A stretch of DNA of 64,000 nt, taken from assembly GCF_013391085.1 (NCBI RefSeq), contig NZ_CP058334.1, positions 2,976,001-3,040,000 on the forward strand, given 5' to 3'. Of this stretch, positions 50,758 through 51,546 are shown one piece after another; position 1 is the stretch's first letter; each line of letters starts with the position of its first letter. The notes beneath the pieces are model-generated. The model saw only the letters and a program-made list of their open reading frames with translations. It was not told the origin of the DNA and searched no databases. Position numbers and translations under genes: made by a program. The DNA is from Natronomonas halophila (lineage in GTDB: Archaea > Halobacteriota > Halobacteria > Halobacteriales > Haloarculaceae).

Positions 50758-50786
50758 CCGACTGAACGGCCACCTGACCGACACCT

Positions 50787-50793
50787 TTTATAT
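50787..50793 (+). promoter_or_regulatory. TATA box of the Cys-leader/serine acetyltransferase transcript
   Basis: TTTATAT is centred about 31 nt before the ATG at 50821, so the transcript probably starts a few bases before the leader peptide. Nothing like it lies between the leader peptide and the serine acetyltransferase gene, so both are likely on one RNA. Confidence 0.65.
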
Positions 50794-50820: not shown

Positions 50821-50901
50821 ATGGCGCACAGCCACGCCGCATTCACGGTTCGTCCCGCCCGCCGACCAGTCTCGGCTGCGGCGTGCTGCTGTTGCTGCTG
50901 A
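50821..50901 (+). CDS. Putative cysteine leader peptide, 26 residues ending in five Cys
   Basis: The frame starts MAHSHAAFTVRPARRPVSA and ends AACCCCC, with codons TGC TGC TGT TGC TGC then TGA. A run of five Cys codons just before a stop is very unlikely by chance in a GC-rich genome with few cysteines. The gene 84 bases downstream encodes serine acetyltransferase, the first step of cysteine synthesis, so slow decoding when Cys-tRNA is scarce could control it. A hairpin (50916-50932) follows. The peptide is probably not functional itself. The attenuation role is inferred from bacterial cysteine leader peptides; translation is unproven. Confidence 0.72.
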   Translation: MAHSHAAFTVRPARRPVSAAACCCCC

Positions 50902-50932
50902 CTTCTCCGTTCCGTCGTTGCTACCAGTAACG
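50891..50932 (+). promoter_or_regulatory. Alternative pairing element downstream of the Cys codons
   Basis: CGTTGCT-ACC-AGTAACG (50916-50932) forms a 7-bp stem with one G-U pair. The 5' arm sequence GTTGCT also occurs inside the Cys codon run (50891-50896), so AGTAAC (50926-50931) could pair with either. A ribosome stalled on the Cys codons would cover the first copy and leave the second free, as in attenuators. Pairing energies are modest and need computing. Confidence 0.4.
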
Positions 50933-50985
50933 CCGGTTTCGCTTCGCTCGCGTTCCGACCGCATCCGCCACCGACTCCCATCGAT

Positions 50986-51546
50986 ATGATATTCGACCGA
51001 CTCAGAGAAGACGTCCGCACCGCCCTCGCAAAGGACCCAGCAGCAACCAGCGCCATCACCGTCGCGCTCCTGTATCCCGGCCTGCACGCCGTCTGGGGCT
51101 ACCGCATCGCCCACCTCCTGTGGGAGCGCGGCTTCGAGTTCACCGCCCGTGCGCTCTCGCAGTTCGTCCGCCTACTGACTGGCGTCGAAATCCATCCCGC
51201 CGCCAACATCGGCCGTCGGTTCTTCATCGACCACGGCGCCGCCGTCGTCGTCGGCGAGACGGCCGACATCGGCGACGACGTGCTGATGTACCACGGCGTC
51301 ACGCTGGGCGGCGATTCGATGCGCCGCGAGAAACGCCACCCGACCCTCGAAGACGGCGTCACCGTCGGCGCGAACTCGACGCTCATCGGCGATATCGTCG
51401 TCGGCGAGAACGCCACCGTCGGCGCCGGCAGCGTCGTCGTCGAAGACGTCGCGCCCGAAACGACCGTTGCCGGGTCGCCCGCCGAACCCGTCGAAGGTAC
51501 CGGCGCCGACCGCGCGACCTCCGAGGACGCCCTCGAGTGCGAGTAA
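50986..51546 (+). CDS. cysE: Serine O-acetyltransferase
   Basis: 186 residues. N-terminal helical part REDVRTALAKDPAATSAI and YPGLHAVWGYRIAHLLWERG is the SATase hallmark, then left-handed beta-helix repeats with IHPAANIGRRFFIDHG and VLMYHGVTLGGDS, which include the catalytic His residues, and VVGENATVGAGSVVV. It makes O-acetylserine, the precursor of cysteine. Shorter than enterobacterial CysE because the extra N-terminal helical domain is missing, as in EpsC-type enzymes. The start at 50986 follows the Cys-rich leader by 84 bases. Confidence 0.93.
   Translation: MIFDRLREDVRTALAKDPAATSAITVALLYPGLHAVWGYRIAHLLWERGFEFTARALSQFVRLLTGVEIHPAANIGRRFFIDHGAAVVVGETADIGDDVLMYHGVTLGGDSMRREKRHPTLEDGVTVGANSTLIGDIVVGENATVGAGSVVVEDVAPETTVAGSPAEPVEGTGADRATSEDALECE

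Follow-up and report, generated by a model that had tools for sequence, protein, structure and literature searches.

The cysE Locus of Natronomonas halophila

The DNA analyzed here, referred to throughout as the window, is a stretch of 64,000 nt from Natronomonas halophila (GCF_013391085.1, contig NZ_CP058334.1, positions 2,976,001 to 3,040,000), and all coordinates given below are those of the window. On its forward strand lies cysE (50986..51546), encoding a serine O-acetyltransferase whose identity as CysE is established by a match to the equivalog TIGR01172 (E 1e-67, above the cut-off). Upstream of this gene, and on the same strand, is a short open reading frame of 26 codons followed by TGA (50821..50901, stop codon at 50899-50901; MAHSHAAFTVRPARRPVSAAACCCCC), termed the leader. 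Its ATG at 50821 is located approximately 28 nt past a strong TATA box (TTTTATAT; 50786..50793, + strand; TTTATAT at 50787-50793), which is the sole promoter seen, and the spacing of the two predicts that transcription starts at the leader ATG or a few nucleotides away from it. The leader ends in a run of five Cys codons, TGC TGC TGT TGC TGC (50884..50898, + strand), that abuts the stop codon and comprises the proposed regulatory codons of the locus.

The leader stop and the cysE ATG at 50986 are separated by 84 nt. Directly 3' of the stop is a pyrimidine tract, CTTCTCC (50902..50908, + strand), proposed below as the entry site of a termination factor. Beyond it, also on the forward strand, lies a hairpin of up to 11 pairs (50912..50936), found in Natronomonas only, whose core reads CGTTGCT-ACC-AGTAACG (50916-50932); a copy of GTTGCT is present inside the Cys-codon run as well (50891-50896). 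The leader-cysE region contains neither a sigma-70-like promoter nor a terminator-like site, and it produced no Rfam match at E values up to 1. The positions that a sequence-only reading of this DNA had assigned to the TATA box, the ATG, the Cys codons, the TGA, the GTTGCT copy, the hairpin, and cysE are correct to the base.

To gauge how often such a frame arises by chance, 10,250 ATG-initiated ORFs of 12-45 amino acids were scanned in 1.6 Mb of the organism's own genome together with the window (1.66 Mb, half of the genome). Four or more Cys in the last six codons were seen in a single ORF, the cysE leader; no other member of the subset of 380 preceded by a TATA-like box reaches even three. 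No leaders with runs of other amino acids stood out in the same 1.66 Mb. One ORF with a Ser run, at genome position 325288, was considered and rejected, as it precedes a histidine-kinase-like gene and has no link to serine. Likewise, no Cys leader was observed before the cysteine synthase genes of this genome at the three best matches.

Conservation of the Leader within the Family

The leader was compared across 93 cysE loci drawn from 18 genera of the family to which the window belongs, including Natronomonas (genus g1, containing Natronomonas CBA1123 and N. gomsonensis), Halorientalis, Halapricum, probably Haloarcula, and others. At each locus the ORF was chosen by its TATA box, with a Cys condition applied to weak boxes only. 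Stop codons flagged inside some of the cysE matches proved to be the normal termini of the genes. A TATA-led ORF of 23-33 codons occupies the same place at 77 of the 93 loci, representing 13 of the 18 genera, and its ATG follows the first base of a TATA-like hexamer by 29-34 nt. Every one of the 77 leaders has a Cys among its final nine codons, with two or more in 74. Within the last 27 nt, Cys codons number 204 in frame as compared to 5 and 12 in the other two frames, and, codon by codon, Cys is most frequent in the five positions next to the stop (-1 to -5; 22-49 of 77 leaders at each), approaching zero further upstream; both of these counts include one mis-picked locus (L196), and because the loci are phylogenetically related the numbers do not represent independent events. 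Consistent with this concentration is the rarity of Cys in the bodies of the peptides (36 of 1259 residues). Compared in this way, the loci show that selection on the Cys codons is reading-frame-specific. The preference for TGT over TGC (159 vs 45) was not counted as evidence, since TGT already accounts for 56% of Cys codons genome-wide and the zone is rich in T.

When the window is viewed alone, the Cys run (TGCTGCTGTTGCTGC) resembles a simple repeat, and the whole feature might be taken for a chance low-complexity TGC repeat within untranslated leader DNA. Set against this notion are the conservation of the run in relatives, its strict frame bias, its mixed composition of Cys and Arg and of TGT and TGC, and the uniqueness of a Cys-run leader in half of the genome. 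The comparative data have already refuted the chance repeat, and its probability is negligible. The sequence-only reading had named a lack of conservation of the Cys run and of the open frame in related species as an outcome that would speak against the leader; conservation of both extends over 13 genera.

Beyond the Cys run, the leaders have little in common. Cys-terminated frames in named relatives include ACRCCC and ACRCCY in Natronomonas, GCCRC in Halorientalis, and GCRCR in Halapricum, and both the number and the spacing of Cys residues differ between genera (CCCCC, CRCCC, CCRC, GCR). No sequence is common to the N-terminal parts of leaders from different genera, indicating that the Cys run has been kept as its surroundings changed. 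Genus g3, which we take to be Haloarcula (sensu stricto), provides 12 alignable leaders in which the TGT/TGC codons at positions 24-25 are almost invariant; substitutions among these leaders display no third-position excess, which suggests that conservation does not concern the peptide sequence itself. Two g3 loci, L184 (G131) and L186 (G201), presumably belonging to Haloarcula hispanica and H. marismortui, respectively, both carry the leader MGDRTSRHVARPLRTTGSHRFSRRCCRF, and cultured model strains may thus exist for tests.

These observations bear upon the idea that the leader encodes a small, functional Cys-rich protein, with a role in metal binding or redox chemistry, that precedes cysE by happenstance. 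The Cys cluster is indeed conserved, and many small zinc-finger proteins are found in haloarchaea (PMC10716476). The variable number and spacing of the Cys residues, the lack of a C(P)XCG pair, and the unconserved N-terminal part do not fit such a protein, nor does the fact that the frame is tied to cysE and to the cysE promoter, and we regard it as a very improbable explanation. Instead, a variable peptide and varying Cys spacing argue for a run of codons that would be read by the ribosome over a metal-binding or redox peptide.

Association of the Leader with cysE

If the leader belongs to cysE, the two should remain together irrespective of their neighbors. Genes found upstream of the leader at the family loci fall into many unrelated clusters, and this diversity indicates that the leader travels with cysE. 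Furthermore, a search of 142 family genomes for the pattern TATA-ATG-CysCysCys-stop returned 13 in-frame matches, 12 of which are located 55-88 nt before cysE. At the level of sequence, the link of the leader to cysE is thereby shown to be near-exclusive, and the claim made from the window alone, namely that a leaderless-looking, TATA-led Cys leader ORF belongs to cysE, is strongly supported by the relatives. Judged from these comparisons, the leader is a genuine feature that is conserved and that belongs specifically to cysE.

The leader is absent at 16 of the 93 family loci, including those of five Natronomonas relatives and of the Halorhabdus-like genus g5, and is thus dispensable. A Natronomonas genome that we believe to be that of N. 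pharaonis is also without it. In three of the five Natronomonas relatives (L085, L087, L089) a strong TATA box is retained approximately 100-150 nt before cysE and the leader frame is gone, such that cysE in these organisms should have a long untranslated leader. At L083 (G333, Natronomonas; about 1336-1413), the leader frame and the hairpin are retained and the run is reduced to a single Cys (AAAAGCRR), which looks like decay of a sensor with its hairpin intact. On a quick and weakly resolved CysE tree, in which gains and losses are not separable, the presence of the leader is clustered (10 changes vs 49 when labels are shuffled).

The leader does not extend to the cysE loci that were sampled in the order's other families. 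At L147 / L322 (genome G180, family f12), a TATA-led frame of 51 codons containing ERCCCP runs into the start of cysE in another reading frame, and represents a possible second architecture or a possible remnant; the CysCysCys frame of L147 is not present at fourteen other f12 loci. Finally, no comparable ORF precedes 71 bacterial cysE relatives, among which three stray matches were obtained.

Features of the Region between Leader and cysE

Across the family, 25-180 nt separate the leader from cysE (median approximately 65 nt; the value of 180 derives from a mis-picked locus), and the frame of the leader relative to that of cysE varies between the 77 loci. An independent promoter in this interval had been named in the sequence-only reading as a finding that would count against control by the leader. 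No further TATA box is present in 76 of 77 cases, the exception being a T tract, and no second TATA box separates the leader of the window from its cysE. A Shine-Dalgarno motif before cysE was also not found in 76 of 77.

One explanation for this arrangement is translational attenuation, whereby the message is always full length and the leader governs access of ribosomes to the cysE start, for example by blocking entry or by refolding of the RNA near cysE. The long 5' region, the presence within it of a uORF that is likely translated, and the missing Shine-Dalgarno motif all accord with this explanation, as do the covarying hairpin that in Natronomonas lies downstream of the leader and ahead of cysE and the description of the mycobacterial counterparts as affecting translation of the downstream gene (PMC9031893). 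Against it stand the distance to be bridged and the lack of a structure conserved family-wide: in Haloferax, reinitiation by coupling becomes weak once the distance exceeds 30-40 nt (PMC12548453), a range that the median gap exceeds, and in the window 49 nt lie between the end of the hairpin and the cysE ATG, leaving the start uncovered. On balance translational attenuation appears rather unlikely. With a gap of 84 nt here and a median near 65 nt, leader and cysE were also rejected as a termination-reinitiation coupled gene pair.

A second explanation is that of a classical attenuator with two alternative structures, in which the Cys run and the 5' arm of the hairpin compete for AGTAAC and the position of the ribosome decides between them. 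This two-partner switch had been proposed from the window sequence, and the part of the proposal that stands is the hairpin. In the window its folding energy has a z score of -2.3 relative to dinucleotide shuffles, with values down to -6.4 in Natronomonas relatives; in an alignment from six Natronomonas genomes 94% of cells are paired and 2 pairs are compensatory, six sequences lending the structure modest support. The alternative pairing with the Cys run is likewise possible in the window and in five relatives, at -8.8 to -16.8 kcal/mol. In all six genomes, however, the local hairpin is the more stable of the two (-11 to -22), the pairing with the Cys run is in part a by-product of the TGTTGCT codon sequence, and no T run follows the hairpin. 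Moreover, most of the other genera with a leader do not have the hairpin, and the mean structure z score over the whole family is approximately -0.4, from which it follows that a hairpin switch cannot be the general mechanism. The two-partner switch is consequently weakly supported, and as an account of cysE control we consider it improbable.

What does recur across the family is a bias in base composition. From approximately 18 nt before the stop to 18 nt after it, T and C predominate and A is almost missing, after which the T frequency is approximately 0.13. Where an all-pyrimidine hexamer is present, it lies at most 20 nt from the stop at 51 of 54 loci, as compared to approximately 5 expected from shuffled sequences. 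Counted from the first base of the final Cys codon, the pyrimidine tract has its median start at 12 nt and its median end at 20 nt; by footprint estimates, the leading edge of a ribosome stalled on that codon should reach about to the start of the tract. The notion that the tract shifts so as to keep its distance to that codon constant was not borne out by any significant correlation. The family-wide tract points to a mechanism that would operate independently of the hairpin.

Individual lineages depart from this pattern. In genus g3 the pyrimidine tract is short and is followed by a small, constant hairpin. At seven loci of genera g11, g17, and g4 (L157-L159, L165, L196, L198, L207) a stem GAGC(G)...(C)GCTC, with TTTCTC or TTTTTT after it, overlaps with the stop codon. 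Lying where a ribosome positioned on the stop would leave its footprint, this stem resembles a miniature intrinsic terminator, and in g11 the GAGC-GCTC stem with its T-rich tail constitutes a lineage-specific form.

Proposed Mechanism of cysE Control

Taken together, the organization, conservation, and specificity of the leader suggest that it acts as a cysteine-responsive leader-peptide attenuator of cysE, a reading to which we assign a probability of roughly 0.85; that the leader ORF places cysE under cysteine-responsive control of some kind may be held with marginally greater confidence still. We infer the direction of this control, translation of the leader, stalling of the ribosome, and FttA as the terminator. 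Rho is to our knowledge absent from archaea, and FttA/aCPSF1 represents the plausible counterpart.

According to the proposed mechanism, the transcript would begin with, or immediately beside, the leader ATG; ribosomes would load on its leaderless end and translate approximately 25 codons, the last of them being the Cys run. If Cys-tRNA is plentiful, the ribosome would reach the stop and leave, exposing the pyrimidine-rich RNA that follows, and transcription would end before cysE, most likely through the action of FttA/aCPSF1. When cysteine is short, the ribosome would halt on the Cys codons with its leading edge abutting or covering the tract, and would stay near the polymerase; transcription would then run on and CysE would be made.

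FttA prefers U-rich RNA, which is needed 30-36 nt behind the polymerase (PMC11616081), and this spacing, counted from the leader tract, would place the point of termination before cysE. The candidate FttA site is the tract located 0-20 nt after the stop and upstream of cysE, which is C/U-rich and not a run of U; the U-rich preference of FttA is known from other archaea and not from haloarchaea. That ribosomes exclude FttA is so far a published proposal (PMC11616081; PMC8116511). We put forward only tentatively, at somewhat less than even odds, the full form of this mechanism: an archaeal transcription attenuator in which a stalled ribosome keeps FttA off its pyrimidine site, and which evolved independently of the bacterial cysteine attenuators. 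The choice of a termination version over a translational version is, in our judgment, evenly balanced.

According to a 2021 study, archaea have no known example of either transcription attenuation or antitermination (PMC8448881). No archaeal cysteine leader was found in the literature searched, which covered few subscription journals such that an earlier report is possible. Judging by its sequence, the leader resembles a cysteine sensor that works through the ribosome, a type for which all earlier descriptions come from bacteria. The common laboratory species Haloferax volcanii lies outside of the leader-bearing family, and this fact, along with the absence of the leader from the probable N. 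pharaonis genome, may explain why the leader has been overlooked. As a conserved cysteine leader before cysE, it would provide a specific and testable candidate for attenuation in culturable genera, and would allow a test of whether ribosomes protect archaeal transcripts from FttA, a question raised previously (PMC11616081; PMC8116511).

Comparison with Known Leader Systems

Small ORFs within haloarchaeal 5'-UTRs are not without precedent, as uORFs have been reported in the long 5'-UTRs of Haloferax volcanii (PMC4983044); none that we have seen is described as amino-acid specific. The closest likeness is found in mycobacteria, which produce leaderless Cys sORFs (Shell 2015, PMC4633059) and in which polycysteine sORFs are reported to mediate cysteine-responsive attenuation (Canestrari 2020, via PMC9031893, PMC13236596). 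Similar to these, the archaeal leader is a leaderless-looking short ORF with a C-terminal Cys cluster, directly upstream of a cysteine gene and with a run that is conserved in relatives. Unlike the mycobacterial sORFs, which are read by a bacterial ribosome and polymerase and precede cysA2 and other genes, it is found before cysE. Given that no such leader precedes the 71 bacterial cysE genes, the likeness to bacterial cysteine attenuators is probably convergent and not the result of descent.

Candidate Cys leaders have additionally been described for the cys operons of Mycobacterium and Propionibacterium acnes and for cbs of Bifidobacterium, with Rho suggested as the factor involved (PMC1262725), and the archaeal leader shares with these actinobacterial sequences a Cys run near the stop and the lack of a conserved terminator hairpin. 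As in the trp, his, and ilv attenuators, regulatory codons are situated in a leader ORF before a biosynthesis gene for the same amino acid; unlike those attenuators, the archaeal leader is without family-wide competing hairpins and without an intrinsic terminator. Assignment to the trp-type, intrinsic-terminator class was rejected, there being no terminator-like site and a hairpin in Natronomonas only.

In the tna operon of E. coli, the ribosome masks a Rho site after the leader stop, and its arrest depends upon the nascent peptide and tryptophan. The tna operon is itself named in the work on actinobacterial leaders (PMC1262725). The mechanism proposed here is similar in that a ribosome retained at the leader's end would shield a factor-loading site just downstream, and differs in that the archaeal leader, having no conserved peptide, would use the codon run itself.
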